DNA of 25,477 nt. Source: a virus. The stretch spans positions 1 through 25,477 of IMG/VR virus record IMGVR_UViG_3300017598_000009, one strand, 5' to 3'. Below the pieces are notes generated by a model. That model was not told the DNA's origin, did no database searches, and saw only the letters and a list, made by a program, of their open reading frames with translations. A program made the position numbers and the translations under genes. How positions within the stretch are numbered: position 1 is the stretch's first letter; each line of letters starts with the position of its first letter. Shown here piece by piece: positions 2,142 through 24,326 of the stretch.

Positions 2142-2557
2142 GTGAAGTAAAAGTAAACGCCATTAGTCCTCGCAGCGGGACGGACATATCTTTCGCAGAT
2201 AATGTAGTGCTACGCCCAGAGATGAAAGACTACGCGGAATCTGTAAACGCTATCGGCGCAACTGGTGGCGGCACACAAGACATCGACTTGACGCTGGGAA
2301 ACGTAGTCACGGCTACCGTAGACACATCAGCCAACACCTTCACGTTCAGCAACCCACCCGCAACTGGTAAGTCTGGATCGTTCACTTTGATCCTGACCAA
2401 CGGTGGCAGTCAGACAGTTAACTGGCCCGGAGCAGTAGATTGGGCTGGAGGTTCTGCGCCAACCCTAACGACTGCGGGTATTGACGTAATCACCTTCACG
2501 ACTATTGACGCCGGAACTATCTGGTATGGGTTCGCTGCTGGCTTGGATATGGGCTAA
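2138..2557 (+). CDS. Tail fibre-type protein, third copy
   Basis: 139 residues. The N-terminus MSEVKVNAISPRSGTDISF is clearly related to the MSSEVKANKISPATGT of the gene at 1327. From about residue 32 it carries a beta-sandwich module (MKDYAESVNAIGATGGGT, TATVDTSANTFTFSNPPATG, SFTLILTNGGSQTVNWPG, DVITFTTIDAGTIWYGF) that I recognise as a frequent C-terminal module of phage fibre or virion proteins. It ends in TAATG with the next gene, giving re-initiation by one-base overlap. It is probably a host-recognition or fibre-tip component. Confidence 0.75.
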   Translation: MSEVKVNAISPRSGTDISFADNVVLRPEMKDYAESVNAIGATGGGTQDIDLTLGNVVTATVDTSANTFTFSNPPATGKSGSFTLILTNGGSQTVNWPGAVDWAGGSAPTLTTAGIDVITFTTIDAGTIWYGFAAGLDMG

Positions 2558-3153
2558 TGCCTTTAGGTGCTAACAAAGTAGCCCTGCTTGGAGCAAGTGC
2601 GGATTTATCCACATCTATTCTGTTGTCTACTGGCGTTGCATCCTCGTCTGCATCGTTAGTATTCACAATACCGGCAACTTATAAGCAGATCGTATTTGGG
2701 TTTTACAATATAAACCCTGCCACTGATGCAGCAGAGTTTCAGTTCCAATGCAGTATAGATGGGGGTTCTAATTATAACGTTACTACGACTACAACATATT
2801 TTTCTGCTGTACATTTTGAGGACGATTCGTATACGGCTCTTACCTATCAAGCCTCTATGGATCAAGCACAAGGAACTGGATTTCAAGATATAGGGCATGG
2901 TTTAGGTAATCAAGCAGACGCTTGCTTTGTAGGTAAACTTAATTTATTCAATCCGTCATCTACTACTTATGTTAAGAATTTTTTTGCAGAAGGACAACAC
3001 CTTGAAACCTCGTCTGGAGCAAGTTATCCGCAGTCAAGTAATTCATTTGTTGCCGGATACTTTAATGACACAAATGACATAAATGGAATTTCTTTCAAAA
3101 TGAGTACCGGCAACATCGCCAGCGGAACCATAAAGATGTGGGGTGTCCTATGA
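2557..3153 (+). CDS. Tandem beta-rich tail protein, paralogue 1
   Basis: 198 residues and the first of three adjacent paralogues. Shared landmarks in the order found here are: an ASSSASLVFTIPATYKQIVF start, F-x-F-x-x-S-x-D-G-G-S-N-Y-N-V-T with T-T-T-T-x-F, L-x-Y-x-x-x-x-D-Q-A-Q-G-T-G-F-Q, L-N-L-F-N-P-S-S-T-T-Y-V-K-N-F, V-A-G-Y-F-N-D-T, I-S-F-K-M-S-T-G-N, and a closing G-T-I-K-M-W-G-V-L. This family is common in marine phages as predicted fibre or virion surface protein; its exact function is not known to me. The start is the ATG inside TAATG with the preceding gene. Confidence 0.75.
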   Translation: MPLGANKVALLGASADLSTSILLSTGVASSSASLVFTIPATYKQIVFGFYNINPATDAAEFQFQCSIDGGSNYNVTTTTTYFSAVHFEDDSYTALTYQASMDQAQGTGFQDIGHGLGNQADACFVGKLNLFNPSSTTYVKNFFAEGQHLETSSGASYPQSSNSFVAGYFNDTNDINGISFKMSTGNIASGTIKMWGVL

Positions 3154-3686
3154 GCGACTGGAAACTAATCTCAACGGCTAACCCATCAGGTGCGGCAAAT
3201 GTCGAGTTCACTGATCTGACAGGTTATAAGATTTTCAAGTTTGTTTTTATTGATATAGATGCTGTTACCTACAATGCTACATTTGAGTTTCAAGGTAGTA
3301 CGGATGGTGGCTCAAATTACAACACCACTATGACTACTACGTTTTTCTACGCATATCATGCCGAAAATGACTCAGGTGCTGGTATGGCATATCTATCATC
3401 ACAAGATCAAGCGCAAGGCACGGCTTATCAACCTTTAGCCACAAGTTTTGGTAGTGATTCTGACCAGTCTGCCGGTGGTGAACTTTTCCTCTACAACCCA
3501 GCCTCCACCGTCTACGTCAAGCATTTTTTAGTTAGAACAACCCAATACTCGAAAGCACCTGAACAAGCGGAATATTATGTTGCTGGATATTTCAACACGA
3601 CAGCAGACTTGAATTCTATCAATTTCAAGATGTCAACAGGAAATTTCTCAGGCACGATAAAGCAATACGGATTGGTGGCAGGATGA
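3150..3686 (+). CDS. Tandem beta-rich tail protein, paralogue 2
   Basis: 178 residues. I take ATG 3150, which overlaps the previous stop as ATGA, rather than a GTG 12 bases upstream that would add MGCP. The conserved landmarks are FEFQGSTDGGSNYNTTMTTT, SSQDQAQGTAYQ, LFLYNPASTVYVKHF, YYVAGYFNTTADLNSINFKM and a closing SGTIKQYGLVAG. The start MSDWKLISTANPSGAANVEF is closely similar to paralogue 3 (MSKLTLISTASPSGSANVSF). It is all beta by pattern, with no signal peptide or membrane segment. It is probably a surface-exposed tail protein. Tandem copies imply duplication followed by divergence of receptor-contact loops. Confidence 0.75.
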   Translation: MSDWKLISTANPSGAANVEFTDLTGYKIFKFVFIDIDAVTYNATFEFQGSTDGGSNYNTTMTTTFFYAYHAENDSGAGMAYLSSQDQAQGTAYQPLATSFGSDSDQSAGGELFLYNPASTVYVKHFLVRTTQYSKAPEQAEYYVAGYFNTTADLNSINFKMSTGNFSGTIKQYGLVAG

Positions 3687-4234
3687 GCAAACTAACTTTA
3701 ATCTCAACTGCCTCACCATCCGGTTCAGCCAATGTTTCGTTTACGAGTGGCATTGACTCAACGTATGATGAGTATGTTTTTTATTATGTGAATATACATC
3801 CATCAGCAAACAATGCCTCATTTACATTTAATGGAAGTTCAGATAGTGGCTCAAATTATAATGTAACCAAAACCACAACTGTGTTTAACGCTCAACATCA
3901 AGAGAGCGGAGCCGGTAGCGCCCTAGCATACGATTCTGGTAGGGATTTAGCACAAAGCACGGGGTTTCAAATACTAAATTATACGCTCGATGGTGCGTCT
4001 AACGATGGCTGTGCCAGTGGTTGTTTGCATTTATTCGCACCTAGTTCAACAACCTATGTCAAAAATTTTTACTGTAAGAGCAACTATATGTATTACGATG
4101 TTTCATCTACTTATTGTATTAGTACTTATGTTGCTGGTTACTTTAATACCACATCTGCTGTTGATGCGATCAGGTTTCAAATGAATAGTGGAAACTTAGA
4201 TGCAGGAACAATTCATCTTTTCGGAGCATCATAA
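3683..4234 (+). CDS. Tandem beta-rich tail protein, paralogue 3
   Basis: 183 residues, joined by ATGA to paralogue 2. It keeps every landmark of the family: YDEYVFYYVNIHPSANNASF, NGSSDSGSNYNVTKTTTVF, DLAQSTGFQ, LHLFAPSSTTYVKNF, STYVAGYFNTTSAVDAIRF and a closing DAGTIHLFGAS. It differs from the other two by several cysteines in the middle (GCASGC, YCK, YC), which could form disulfides or be loop variation. It stands directly before a tail-assembly-chaperone-type gene. Function is inferred as a fibre or tail surface protein. Confidence 0.75.
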   Translation: MSKLTLISTASPSGSANVSFTSGIDSTYDEYVFYYVNIHPSANNASFTFNGSSDSGSNYNVTKTTTVFNAQHQESGAGSALAYDSGRDLAQSTGFQILNYTLDGASNDGCASGCLHLFAPSSTTYVKNFYCKSNYMYYDVSSTYCISTYVAGYFNTTSAVDAIRFQMNSGNLDAGTIHLFGAS

Positions 4235-16442: not shown

Positions 16443-16615
16443 ATCACTTAAAGGAGCAGAATGAATCGTATGTGGAACACTTGCGTAAAGCAATGTATTA
16501 TTCCGGTTGTTTGCTTGTTGGTAGCGTTTGTGCTTTTGTCCACGCTCTTGTTCCATTCGTGATGACAAAGACAACTACCAATCTTGTGAGATACCTAAGT
16601 AATGATCTTAAATGA
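16439..16615 (+). CDS. DUF6356-like small membrane protein (58 aa)
   Basis: 58 residues starting MNHLKEQNESYVEHLRKAMY and continuing with a hydrophobic stretch that contains the H-A-L-V-P-F motif (residues 39-44), then a polar C-terminus. The order 'H-L-x-x-x-x-x-x-Y-x-x-H-x-x-x-A', one TM segment and 'HA-x-x-P-F' is the pattern of the DUF6356 family of small bacterial and phage membrane proteins (function unknown). ATGA overlaps join it to both neighbours, which supports this frame over the nested one at 16461. Confidence 0.7.
   Translation: MNHLKEQNESYVEHLRKAMYYSGCLLVGSVCAFVHALVPFVMTKTTTNLVRYLSNDLK
16461..16562 (+). CDS. Possible nested membrane peptide (33 aa), uncertain
   Basis: In another frame inside the DUF6356-like gene, ATG 16461 follows AAGGAG (16451-16456) with a 4-base gap and encodes MNRMWNTCVKQCIIPVVCLLVAFVLLSTLLFHS-like content: a short polar lead and a single strongly hydrophobic helix. 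Small nested TM peptides occur in phage lysis genes. However, shifted frames of membrane genes are often hydrophobic by chance, and the AAGGAG also encodes residues of the host frame. Kept as a weak candidate. Confidence 0.25.
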   Translation: MNRMWNTCVKQCIIPVVCLLVAFVLLSTLLFHS

Positions 16616-16923
16616 CGATAACAAATGGAGCGAGGAAAAGACTATCAGAAGTTCTAAAAGACGGAGAGTTCCTAGAGGTTGGATTGAAAGGTGGCGGCTG
16701 TGGTGGAGCAACTATCCTCCTGACAAAAGTGTCTACGATGAGTACAGACGCATTGAACATAGCAGGGAGTACCAACGTAATATTCGCAGACAAAACCTCG
16801 CAGACGTATTTGACAGAGGGTAGCCTTGATTACAATAACGAGTCGTTTAATGCCTCGTTCATATTTAAACCACCATTGGGTACGGAGTCCTGCGGTTGCG
16901 GGGCATCAATTAAAATAGGATAG
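16612..16923 (+). CDS. A-type Fe-S carrier (IscA/ErpA/HesB-like)
   Basis: 103 residues, near the usual 107-115 of the family. It shows the family order: an N-terminal helix (NGARKRLSEVLKDGEF), the first cysteine in GLKGGGCGG (C30), a beta-rich middle with V-I-F-A-D and the L-T-E-G-S-L-D-Y turn. The C-terminal CGCG box in ESCGCGASI follows, with C94 and C96. In IscA/ErpA the three cysteines bind a [2Fe-2S] or [4Fe-4S] cluster for transfer to apo-proteins, and all three are present here. The gene overlaps the DUF6356 gene by ATGA and lies in a membrane/export cluster rather than the replication block. The family is a known auxiliary gene of marine phages. Confidence 0.85.
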   Translation: MTITNGARKRLSEVLKDGEFLEVGLKGGGCGGATILLTKVSTMSTDALNIAGSTNVIFADKTSQTYLTEGSLDYNNESFNASFIFKPPLGTESCGCGASIKIG

Positions 16924-21029: not shown

Positions 21030-22673
21030 TCATATACCGCACACTCCTGAGAGGCACTGCTCCTCACTGTTGTCCTCGTAGATTACGCCACGCTTAGCAT
21101 GAGCCTCCTCATATGACACTGAGGTGATAGGCTGCCCCCCTCTCGAGCCATCAGGATACACAGTCAAACCTCTTAGTCCGGGCGCATACTTCTTAATGAT
21201 CCGAGCAAACTCACCAACCTTATCTTCATTGTTTTGGTCAGTTCCCCACGCAGGCAGGTTCAACGTGGAACTTATGCCGTGATCTACGAACTTCTGCAAC
21301 TCGTACTGCAGTTTAATCCTGCGCTCTGGATCTGACGCCAAGTCAACTGCTGACTCAATGTTATCAGGTTTAATTCCTGTGCCTATCAGTGCCTGTGCTG
21401 TACCGTCAACGACAAACTGATGTTTCCACCTGGTTCCATCAGAAAGATAGCGTCTGCGGTATGCAACGGCGTAGATAGGTTCCACTCCAGAGGTGGTGCC
21501 GGCAAGGATGCTGATGGTTCCCGTTGGCGCAATTGCCCTATATCCTTTAGGATAGTTGAGACAAAATCTTCCGCAATGCTCATCTGCCGATCTTTTACTT
21601 TCTGATTCATATACCCTCATCCATTGTTTAAGTTCGTCTACCATTTCGTACTTATGACCACGCCTTAGCAGCCACTCGTGCATGCCCATAAGGCCAAGCC
21701 CTATACGACTGTTCTTCTGCCTCACCTTGTACACCCTGCTATAGGGTAGGTGTGCCCTCATTAAACCACAAACCAAGAACTTAGAGCCAAGAGAAACGAC
21801 CTCTTTAAACTCCTCAACCGAAGAAATATTAGCCAAATTAACAGAGCCAAGGTTACATACATCGCTGTCATCCTCTGACGTAATTTCCGTACAAGCGTTT
21901 CGTAAAGTTTCATTCTGTTGCGCTCCAAAGTTAAACGAAAACCCAGGCTCACCTGTCATCATGGCCTGCTTAACATTCTCTAGGTAAATCTTGTTCATCG
22001 GGTCTTTGAGCCACGCATCATCGTAGTTCAGAGACACGTTCATCATGTCCAATGGGGCGGGCCAGTTAAAGTTTTCTTTCTTCAACTCTGCCAGAGTAGT
22101 GCCTGCTACCTTTATGTCATGCCAGTTCTTTACGGTTAGGAAATCACCCGCGTCTTCATGTTGCCAGTTCATACTGCCATACATTGCAGACCTGCGGCTA
22201 CCACCCTGCATAACGTAGCGACCAATCTCGTTGGTGGCTAAAAGAAACGGTATGGGGCCAGAGGACACCCCACCCGTCTTACTTAATGTCCTACCTTTCG
22301 GGCGGAATGCTGATACATCGATTCCGATTCCACCCCCGGTCATCAAACAAGATCCTGCACGTTGCCACAGTGCGGCCCATTCTTCCCGGGTATCCTCCTC
22401 TGCTTTAAGTAGGTAACAATTGTTGTAGAACCGCGCCTCTCTACCAGCATACCAGAGATACCTGCCTCCCGGCATAAACTTAAACTCTGATATATACTGA
22501 GTGAGCTGGTCACGATCAGACTTATCCATAAGCGGAGTCTTCATAGCATTGAAGTCACCACACACGCTGTTGACCACAGCGTGCGCCTTGTCCTCCCATG
22601 TTTCGTAGGGGTTAGAGGCATACTTCTGCTTGAATATAGTCTCCCCTAATTCTGTTTTAAATCCTTGACTCAT
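21030..22673 (-). CDS. nrdJ: Class II (adenosylcobalamin-dependent) ribonucleotide reductase
   Basis: 547 residues. The active site N-x-C-x-E appears as NACTE (N259, C261, E263), the cysteine carrying the thiyl radical. The reducing pair fits C86 (NNCYLL) and C273 (DVCNLGSVNLANI). The barrel motifs IGLGLMGMHEWL, APTGTISILAGTTSGVEP and GLTVYPDGSRGGQP are present, and the C-terminus carries the swinging-tail pair C540/C545 (CLSGVCGI). No small subunit gene is seen, and a single-chain design of this size fits class II, using coenzyme B12 instead of a di-iron subunit. It converts ribonucleotides to deoxyribonucleotides for phage DNA synthesis and works without oxygen. It is 3 bases from the transporter gene upstream. 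Confidence 0.9.
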   Translation of the reverse strand: MSQGFKTELGETIFKQKYASNPYETWEDKAHAVVNSVCGDFNAMKTPLMDKSDRDQLTQYISEFKFMPGGRYLWYAGREARFYNNCYLLKAEEDTREEWAALWQRAGSCLMTGGGIGIDVSAFRPKGRTLSKTGGVSSGPIPFLLATNEIGRYVMQGGSRRSAMYGSMNWQHEDAGDFLTVKNWHDIKVAGTTLAELKKENFNWPAPLDMMNVSLNYDDAWLKDPMNKIYLENVKQAMMTGEPGFSFNFGAQQNETLRNACTEITSEDDSDVCNLGSVNLANISSVEEFKEVVSLGSKFLVCGLMRAHLPYSRVYKVRQKNSRIGLGLMGMHEWLLRRGHKYEMVDELKQWMRVYESESKRSADEHCGRFCLNYPKGYRAIAPTGTISILAGTTSGVEPIYAVAYRRRYLSDGTRWKHQFVVDGTAQALIGTGIKPDNIESAVDLASDPERRIKLQYELQKFVDHGISSTLNLPAWGTDQNNEDKVGEFARIIKKYAPGLRGLTVYPDGSRGGQPITSVSYEEAHAKRGVIYEDNSEEQCLSGVCGI

Positions 22674-22676
22674 TTC

Positions 22677-23132
22677 TTATCCCCTTTTTTGCTTTTTCAG
22701 TGATATCCAGACCGCCACCGCACCAACCATCTTGGATGCCGTCATCACGATCACATTCGCGGGACTTAAAATCCCAATCATTGCGGTAAACACAATGGAA
22801 TCAATTGGTGTACCCACTGCTGATGACCATAGGATTCGATCACGCAATGGTCGCTTGGTGAATGTATAAACAACCCAATCAACGATCTCGGATACCAGGA
22901 ACGCGGCCACTGATGCGATAGCAACGAATGGGTCTGCCATTACATAAGAGATTGCACCGCCGACTAACATCACCGGGATCACCCAATGCCCTATCTTGCG
23001 TTGCGCTAGGTCGCGGAAGATGAACGTCAAGCCGACAATCATTGATGTTGGCTGCCAAATGCCAATGGGTGGAATGACGGTGAATAACCAATTCACCGAT
23101 ACGATACTGATCAGATAAATTATTGCCCACAT
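22677..23132 (-). CDS. yhhQ: YhhQ/QPTR-family queuosine precursor transporter
   Basis: 151 residues, shorter than bacterial YhhQ (over 200). About five membrane segments are visible. Family motifs are GIWQPTSMIVGLTFIFRDLA, then QRKIGHW, SEIVDWVVYTF, DRILWSSAVGTPIDSIVF and the final VIVMTASKMVGAVAVW. In bacteria these proteins import 7-deazaguanine bases (preQ0, preQ1) used for queuosine. The gene overlaps the 3' end of the DpdA/TGT-like gene by 13 bases and has no tRNA-queuosine synthesis neighbours. A supply role for the adjacent base-exchange enzyme is therefore the obvious reading. Family assignment is confident; substrate is inferred. Confidence 0.85.
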   Translation of the reverse strand: MWAIIYLISIVSVNWLFTVIPPIGIWQPTSMIVGLTFIFRDLAQRKIGHWVIPVMLVGGAISYVMADPFVAIASVAAFLVSEIVDWVVYTFTKRPLRDRILWSSAVGTPIDSIVFTAMIGILSPANVIVMTASKMVGAVAVWISLKKQKRG

Positions 23133-23857
23133 AGTTTGAACTCCCGTTGTACTGTTAAGTTGTTATTCCATAATGGAGCAGAGTTATAAGCCTCAACCCT
23201 ATCCGCTATGATGTTTGCCCTCTGACTTTCCTTTCTAGGCAGATATATTCCAAACCGTTGCTCTGGCATGAATGATCTAGTAGCCGCAGATGCACTGTCA
23301 GCAGATGCCAAGGGGATTGATTGGAAAATCCTTTGGTCTAACATCCGCAATCCATGTAACTTGCATCGCGGCCTACCAAGGTCATCACATAAAACGTCCA
23401 TCGCTTGTGCAATCCGCGTCCAGAATTTCTTGCCCCCGGGTTCCATGCCTTCCGTTGAGCCAAACGCAACTCGATCCCATCTGAGAGAGAGGCGATCCAA
23501 ACGATCTAGTGATTCATTTAGATGCCATACCGGAACCCCATCGCTGATGTAAGGCCAATCCTCGATCAAGCCATCGTTTTGATCTTCACTGCCGTTGATG
23601 ACATCAGGTATCAATGCCCAATCAAAACCAGGATGCCGCCGCCAATCATCCACCCAATCGGTGTAACCTTTAACGTCCAGGTCTTTGCCGGATTTCCATA
23701 CAGAAAATGCACCGTTATCGAGTACAAATGAATGACTGACTTCTGCCATTGTTTCCAATTCGGAGCGGTGGGCAAAACTGATCAAAGAATGTCGGCCAGT
23801 GAAGAATTCATGCGACTGATTGGCTTTACCAAGAGGGCCACCGTGGTAATGAATCAT
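23120..23857 (-). CDS. DpdA/TGT-like base-exchange enzyme (phage DNA 7-deazaguanine modification)
   Basis: 245 residues, a phage protein related to tRNA-guanine transglycosylase. The pattern runs from the N-terminal IHYHGGPLGKANQ and DNGAFSVWKSG (D47) through WALIPDVINGSEDQN, VPVWHLNESLDRL and AFGSTEGMEPGG to CKLHGLRML. The near-terminal I-P-L-A-S-A-D-S-A-S has D187, a likely nucleophile equivalent. DpdA enzymes swap guanine for preQ0 or related 7-deazaguanines in DNA, blocking restriction enzymes. The upstream ribosome site AGGAGG overlaps the previous stop. The short length (versus more than 350 for tRNA TGT) and the missing zinc-binding cysteines argue for the phage class. Direct neighbour of a YhhQ transporter. 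Confidence 0.8.
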   Translation of the reverse strand: MIHYHGGPLGKANQSHEFFTGRHSLISFAHRSELETMAEVSHSFVLDNGAFSVWKSGKDLDVKGYTDWVDDWRRHPGFDWALIPDVINGSEDQNDGLIEDWPYISDGVPVWHLNESLDRLDRLSLRWDRVAFGSTEGMEPGGKKFWTRIAQAMDVLCDDLGRPRCKLHGLRMLDQRIFQSIPLASADSASAATRSFMPEQRFGIYLPRKESQRANIIADRVEAYNSAPLWNNNLTVQREFKLCGQ

Positions 23858-23861
23858 CTTC

Positions 23862-23867
23862 CCTCCT
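23862..23867 (-). promoter_or_regulatory. Ribosome-binding site AGGAGG for the DpdA-like gene
   Basis: On the - strand AAAGGAGGG lies just downstream of the Rad52-type stop and 4 bases before ATG 23857, giving unusually strong initiation and fixing the start. Confidence 0.75.
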
Positions 23868-24326
23868 TTACGAATTGTCTTTTAGTTCTTTCGTCCACCC
23901 AGCAATCTCACCATCCTCTCGATCGTCCATCAGCGCGTCGTAGCCCTCTGGTGTGGCCCAATACGCCGCCTCTCTGTTGGCGTTAAAGCATCCCGGGTGA
24001 TAGTACAGGCGCCCGATTCCCCAAAGCACCCCAGCTCGCTTGAGCGCATCTGATATGCCACCCTTGGCTGACTCTATCTGGGTGTCGTCAGCGCCATCCG
24101 ACTTGCTGACCCAATCCCCTTGCACCCGGCAGGATATATTGCATATCATTCGGTTGCCAAGCCATTCGTACTTTGTCTGCCAACCCTCCGGCCCAAACAC
24201 CTCGTCCAGCCTGTCCATAACATCACGGGCTGTGATATAGGCCAGTTCTTTTCCTCCGGGTCCAGCCCTAAAACTTACCTTGGCTACGGGGAACGGGCGT
24301 TTAAGAGCGCGCTCAATCTGATTCAT
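23868..24326 (-). CDS. Rad52/Rad22-family single-strand annealing protein
   Basis: 152 residues. The Rad52-type core is seen in VSFRAGPGGKELAYITARDV, then LDEVFGPEGWQTKYEWLG and ISCRVQGDWVSKSDGADDTQ. IESAKGGISDALKRAGVLWG and IGRLYYHPG follow. The order 'AY-x-x-x-R-x-x-x-x-R-L-x-x-x-x-G-x-x-x-W', 'KG-x-x-SDALKRA' and 'lG-x-x-LY' is characteristic. Phage Rad52-like proteins anneal single strands after exonuclease action, and this window also encodes a RecB-like exonuclease and a PD-(D/E)XK nuclease. An AAGGAG ribosome site is 7 bases before ATG 24326. The start overlaps the stop of the upstream gene (ATGA). Confidence 0.85.
   Translation of the reverse strand: MNQIERALKRPFPVAKVSFRAGPGGKELAYITARDVMDRLDEVFGPEGWQTKYEWLGNRMICNISCRVQGDWVSKSDGADDTQIESAKGGISDALKRAGVLWGIGRLYYHPGCFNANREAAYWATPEGYDALMDDREDGEIAGWTKELKDNS

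Follow-up and report, generated by a model that had tools for sequence, protein, structure and literature searches.

The window analysed here is a linear, 25,477-base virus record from IMG/VR, probably a fragment, and carries two overlapping genes on its minus strand. The gene dpdA (23120-23857) encodes a predicted short DpdA/TGT-like base-exchange enzyme of 245 amino acids, with predicted catalytic residues D47 and D187, plus D85, H112, and H168. The gene qptr (22677-23132) encodes a small membrane transporter of the QPTR/YhhQ family (PF02592) with 151 amino acids and five long predicted helices. As the earlier note had described, both are minus-strand open reading frames, and the end of dpdA and the start of qptr share 13 nt (23120-23132), an overlap kept in most relatives within the clade. 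Reading by eye, we located Shine-Dalgarno-like sequences on the same strand before each ATG codon, AAGGAGGG for dpdA (23861-23868) and CGGGAG for qptr (23141-23146). Chance open reading frames and a chance overlap are excluded, because the two proteins, with their overlap, are found again in 18 related contigs and purifying selection acts on both genes (dN/dS = 0.03-0.12 for dpdA and qptr, where dS was not saturated).

The two genes lie within a tight same-strand order of DnaB-like, RusA-like, Rad52/Erf-like, dpdA, qptr, and class II ribonucleotide reductase genes. The Rad52/Erf-like recombinase gene (23868-24326, minus strand) ends 10 nt before dpdA and is probably in one transcript with it. 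The class II (B12-dependent type) ribonucleotide reductase gene (21030-22673, minus strand) lies 3 nt downstream of qptr, with which it probably also shares a transcript. The nearest relatives of this adenosylcobalamin-type reductase are those of Roseobacter phages CRP-3 and CRP-212 (53-54%), followed by Streptomyces phages (46%). The structural genes of the window match Pseudomonas phage tf-like podoviruses, and a 536-residue virion protein has its matches in Pseudomonas phages tf, Bjorn, and UFV-P2, in line with the podovirus identity proposed previously. No match to phage records was obtained by megablast of the window, no tRNA genes were detected in it, and PADLOC made no call for the DpdA-like protein or QPTR. 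Elsewhere in the window, an Fe-S cluster biosynthesis match (16612-16923; HesB/IscA type, PF01521, E = 3e-8) overlaps the open reading frame at 16602-16823. Three consecutive similar tail-region proteins (2557-4234; 198, 182, and 183 amino acids), the first of which belongs to phrog_14820 of unknown function, are apparently the products of duplicated genes.

The 245-residue protein drew no match from Pfam, and it matched phrog_887 (queuine TGT) with E = 2.5e-60. Pairwise BLAST aligned it with the 306-residue CAjan DpdA (25% identity over 150 residues, E = 1e-10), and in this alignment D47, H112, H168, and D187 fall on the same residue types. Deletion of dpdA in CAjan abolishes dPreQ0 in the virion DNA (PMC6884629), and membership in the DpdA family is thus indicated by homology to a proven DpdA as well as by phrog_887. 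Among 40 diverse members of the short-DpdA family, D47-N48-G49, P84-D85, H112, G133, H168, L170-R171, P182, and D187 are invariant; together with the homology to CAjan DpdA, this conservation supports the assignment of D47 and D187 to the active site, as suggested before. The AlphaFold2 model, calculated from a 46-row alignment (pLDDT 88, pTM 0.86), is a confident TGT-like barrel, as had been anticipated; the two predicted catalytic Asp residues and the conserved H168 were assigned in it by alignment. Its best fold match in the PDB was Cap10, a TGT-like enzyme of type IV CBASS (E = 5e-5, TM = 0.64), and an archaeosine TGT ranked 24th (TM = 0.56), amid other TIM barrels. Sequence searches of the PDB with DpdA and with its profile returned nothing relevant.

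The length of the enzyme had been taken as a possible sign of a distinct subgroup. This idea did not survive, as approximately 235-250 amino acids is the normal size in the known singleton DpdA family (PMC6884629). That family, represented by Salmonella phage 7-11, the temperate phages BTP1, SfI, and SPN3UB, and the DpdA/TGT_1 of the MED16 cluster as published, shares its length and invariant residues with the window DpdA. Searches of phage records with the window DpdA and with the 234-residue DpdA of phage 7-11, which are 34% identical, returned 104 records each with nearly equal organism tallies. The window DpdA therefore belongs to group 3 of Hutinet et al. (2019), the gamma-proteobacterial singleton DpdAs. 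Relatives of this short DpdA are encoded by at least 300 IMG/VR stretches, and members are also frequent among prophages of Pseudomonas, Burkholderiales, Enterobacterales, and others. Phages 7-11, BTP1, Epa33, Athena1, SEN1, and K394 lack QPTR, whereas in the window's clade it is present on every contig that extends far enough. Among cultured phages, Pseudomonas phage Epa33 has the nearest short DpdA (56%); its dpdA gene (L001:8001-10830) is followed by one for a C5-cytosine methylase, and such methylases recur beside short DpdA.

The 151-residue QPTR matched PF02592 with 28.1 bits (E = 3e-6), above the curated cut-off of 27.2, and phrog_4899 with E = 2e-33, which supports the earlier prediction of a YhhQ-type transporter. 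Its score against the TIGR00697 equivalog model (30.8 bits, E = 2e-7) lies below the cut-off of 50.95, and we therefore refer to it as a family member and not as an equivalog of the bacterial QPTR. The structural model consists of five long helices (pLDDT 81); Foldseek returned no match for it, and a PDB sequence search found no solved relative. Alignment with four bacterial QPTRs over the common core showed that Asn14, Asp41, Ser103, and Asp111 are kept. Bacterial QPTR/YhhQ proteins (PF02592, COG1738) contain approximately 240 amino acids, compared with approximately 150 in the phage QPTR (80-100 fewer), and their GDxxTEVYGY motif is replaced by RDxAQRxxG in the phage protein. Considering this shorter length and the presence of RDxAQ in place of GDxxTE, the substrate of the phage QPTR could differ from that of its bacterial counterparts. 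The E. coli QPTR moves preQ0 and preQ1, and the chlamydial QPTR moves queuine (PMC11130926); since these substrates differ, that of the phage protein is not readable from its sequence.

We observed the short DpdA directly adjoining QPTR in 18 IMG/VR contigs of the window's clade, and every close relative of the pair that reaches far enough has DpdA followed by QPTR, mostly with the identical 13-nt overlap. Outside the clade, the same order is found in Acinetobacter phage AB3P2 (13-nt overlap), Vibrio phages K392 and BUCT006, and one viral contig (L191), and QPTR comes first in viral contigs L029, L053, and L096-L098, with overlaps of 4 to 41 nt. Nine further paired loci are prophage-like, from Achromobacter, Erwinia, Ideonella, Rhizobium (two), Nitrosomonadales, a betaproteobacterium, Rhizobiales, and an actinomycetote. 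When neighbours were clustered by similarity, QPTR was the neighbour that occurred beside the largest number of DpdA lineages. In one scan, 20 of the 22 IMG/VR QPTR loci adjoined a short DpdA, one adjoined a divergent TGT-like open reading frame, and one was cut at the contig end; a scan with the AB3P2 QPTR returned no relatives. The divergent case (L095:2993-4059) consists of QPTR followed by a TGT-like open reading frame of approximately 201 residues with an FAADNGCF motif and a marginal match to the short-DpdA profile, possibly another enzyme family using the same importer.

On a tree of 96 proteins, the paired/unpaired state requires 10 changes, 9 of them forced by well-supported branches (5 and 4, respectively, on an earlier 48-protein tree). 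The occurrence of both gene orders favours repeated assembly of the pair, though the tree does not tell gains from losses. The DpdA and QPTR distances also correlate (r = 0.73; 1 of 5000 permutations was as high). This repeated, independent adjacency supports a functional link between DpdA and QPTR, as judged from the sequences. Hutinet et al. (2019) noted YhhQ homologs in some phages without correlation with any group, and a transporter within a full pathway has been described (PMC8310023). Among openly readable papers, we found no report of a recurring two-gene import-and-insert cassette, and the dpdA-QPTR pairing thus looks to be the new feature.

At the DNA level, the window matches 18 contigs of the clade from 22,689-22,720 to 23,856-23,869, as far as the partner contig extends, with 66-87% identity. 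The block of similarity common to these contigs (22694-23860, minus strand) has ends coinciding with the cassette and comprises almost nothing else; only L005 and L094 share another short stretch. The flanking genes differ: contig L277 carries genes for a Cas4-type exonuclease, Sak4, and SSB near an 82%-identical cassette, and of 11 further window genes that were tested, among them those of Rad52 and the ribonucleotide reductase, it has none. Its portal protein nevertheless matches the same tf-like podoviruses as the window tail protein, and a reading in which the clade's cassette sits in unrelated phage backgrounds was therefore softened. Since the L277 portal comes from the same broad group of tf-like podoviruses, we read the pattern as exchange of the cassette, or its unusual conservation, inside that group. 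The same contig carries a PAPS-reductase-like gene (L277:6708-7613, phrog_424).

To search for precursor synthesis genes, we built HMMs for FolE, QueC, QueD, and QueE from proteins of phages CAjan and 9g, adding VpKK5 for QueE. No open reading frame resembling any of the four was detected in the incomplete window, consistent with their reported absence, and none of the 15 paired records tested had QueC or QueD, among them the full AB3P2, K392, and BUCT006 records and contigs of 37 and 60 kb. Conversely, the QPTR model found nothing in the DpdA-only records searched. Seven other short-DpdA loci (L023, L025, L026, L028, L031, L058, and L270) have queE beside dpdA, two of them (L023 and L025) also queC, and none has QPTR; they form a small, preQ0-making type of short-DpdA locus. 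Full-pathway phages (CAjan, VpKK5, Rhizobium phage RHph_X3_2, and Erebus) carry synthesis genes and QPTR together, indicating that import and synthesis are not universally exclusive. In the Queuovirinae pathway (CAjan/Seurat/EC151; folE-queD-queE-queC-dpdA with a preQ0 transporter), QPTR (42% identical) and DpdA lie in one cluster, as in the window, and the presumed base exchange is the same. However, those phages make preQ0, their DpdA is the longer and distant 306-residue form, and their QPTR is not next to dpdA, whereas no synthesis gene is present in the 25.5 kb of the window phage. The simplest reading is that the 7-deazaguanine precursor limits DpdA, and that phages make, import, or borrow it.

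Of 9 host genomes with a paired locus, 4 lacked full-length QueC, compared with 1 of the 41 in which the locus was unpaired (Fisher p = 0.0025). Among isolates alone, the proportions were about 1/4 for paired and 0/30 for unpaired hosts, a difference that was not significant. These values are suggestive, but a hint only, since the QueC-lacking hosts are mostly Rhizobiales and metagenome-assembled genomes, in which taxonomy and genome quality confound the comparison. Import is not obligatory, as 5 of the 9 hosts that carry paired prophages encode a QueC themselves and most short-DpdA phages have no QPTR.

The best explanation of the pair, which we consider probable, is a salvage-type 7-deazaguanine DNA-modification module that combines import with insertion into DNA. 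QPTR would sit in the host inner membrane during infection and take up a free 7-deazaguanine base from the surroundings, either preQ0 or a related compound; we infer this substrate and the direction of transport from knowledge of the family. The short DpdA would then exchange guanines in the phage DNA for the imported base by the TGT mechanism, in which one Asp would form a covalent link to the sugar as guanine leaves, and the other would act as an acid/base. We likewise infer the DNA target and the timing of the module's action. With an imported base, the phage would not need folE, queD, queE, or queC, and translational coupling through the 13-nt overlap may keep DpdA and QPTR together.

A variant of this explanation, which we regard as possible but less probable, holds that DpdA works on DNA and leaves a sparse or site-specific mark that does not serve restriction evasion, with QPTR only topping up the supply. 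It draws on the two DpdA-only phages with measured DNA, Salmonella phage 7-11, with dADG at 0.02% of G (PMC6884629), and MED16, with 0.13% (PMC8306585), the DNA of which is still cut by enzymes including EcoRI and HaeIII (PMC8306585). With such values, the anti-restriction role that had been proposed for the pair is not supported, and traces of this kind in the nearest measured relatives also weigh against the salvage module. Both phages connect to the present enzyme: in our tests, 7-11 fell in the short-DpdA family, to which SEN1, the closest phage homolog of MED16, also belongs. Phage 7-11 has no QPTR, however, so its low level may just reflect a precursor shortage. Such a shortage, which QPTR would relieve, may underlie the low dADG of both phages.

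It is unlikely that the pair acts on tRNA, with QPTR enlarging the supply of queuosine precursor and the TGT-like enzyme modifying host or phage tRNA to favour phage translation. In favour of this, tRNA is the substrate of the TGT superfamily, the QPTR of bacteria serves the queuosine modification of tRNA, and Hutinet et al. (2019) suggest such a role for phages that have preQ genes and lack DpdA. Against this, none of the 40 short-family members matched Pfam TGT (PF01702), and the protein is therefore not classed as a tRNA-guanine transglycosylase; its single barrel offers no space for the C-terminal portion of TGT, and its sequence similarity points to CAjan DpdA. In addition, 49 of the 50 host genomes examined already encode a tRNA TGT, and the relatives 7-11 and MED16 have dADG in their DNA.

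More doubtful still is the attachment of the imported 7-deazaguanine to a protein, similar to CBASS Cap9/Cap10, for example to sabotage host defence. Cap10 is the closest solved fold to the window DpdA and was found in complex with CdnD carrying the deazaguanine modification, and it thus acts on protein. Its identity to the window DpdA is nevertheless approximately 10%, no Cap9/QueC-like partner occurs in the window or in the paired records tested, and direct sequence similarity links the enzyme to the DNA-modifying DpdA of CAjan. Finally, dpdA and qptr could be unrelated passengers whose adjacency is accidental or limited to one phage group, as phage genomes are dense and often shuffled and most short DpdAs lack a QPTR neighbour, but their adjacency in many DpdA lineages and in both gene orders, with 9-10 state changes, and at 20 of the 22 QPTR loci of the scan makes this very improbable.

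Beyond the window, we lean slightly towards a wider interpretation of the salvage module, in which salvage-only 7-deazaguanine DNA modification is widespread and modular, the two-gene unit having been assembled many times independently and passed on between phages as a block. Import would then be one of three supply modes of one enzyme family, beside synthesis, with queE/queC next to dpdA, and borrowing from the host by phages that have dpdA alone; it may be favoured in hosts unable to make preQ0. Whether DpdA phages without preQ0 genes modify their DNA, and from where the base would come, was a question left by Hutinet et al. (2019). The adjacency of dpdA and QPTR without synthesis genes names phages for direct tests of import, namely Acinetobacter phage AB3P2 and Vibrio phages BUCT006 and K392. 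If the interpretation is correct, the lack of an importer could explain why only traces of modification occur in DpdA-only phages, and the DNA chemistry of some phages would depend on 7-deazaguanines released by other microbes.
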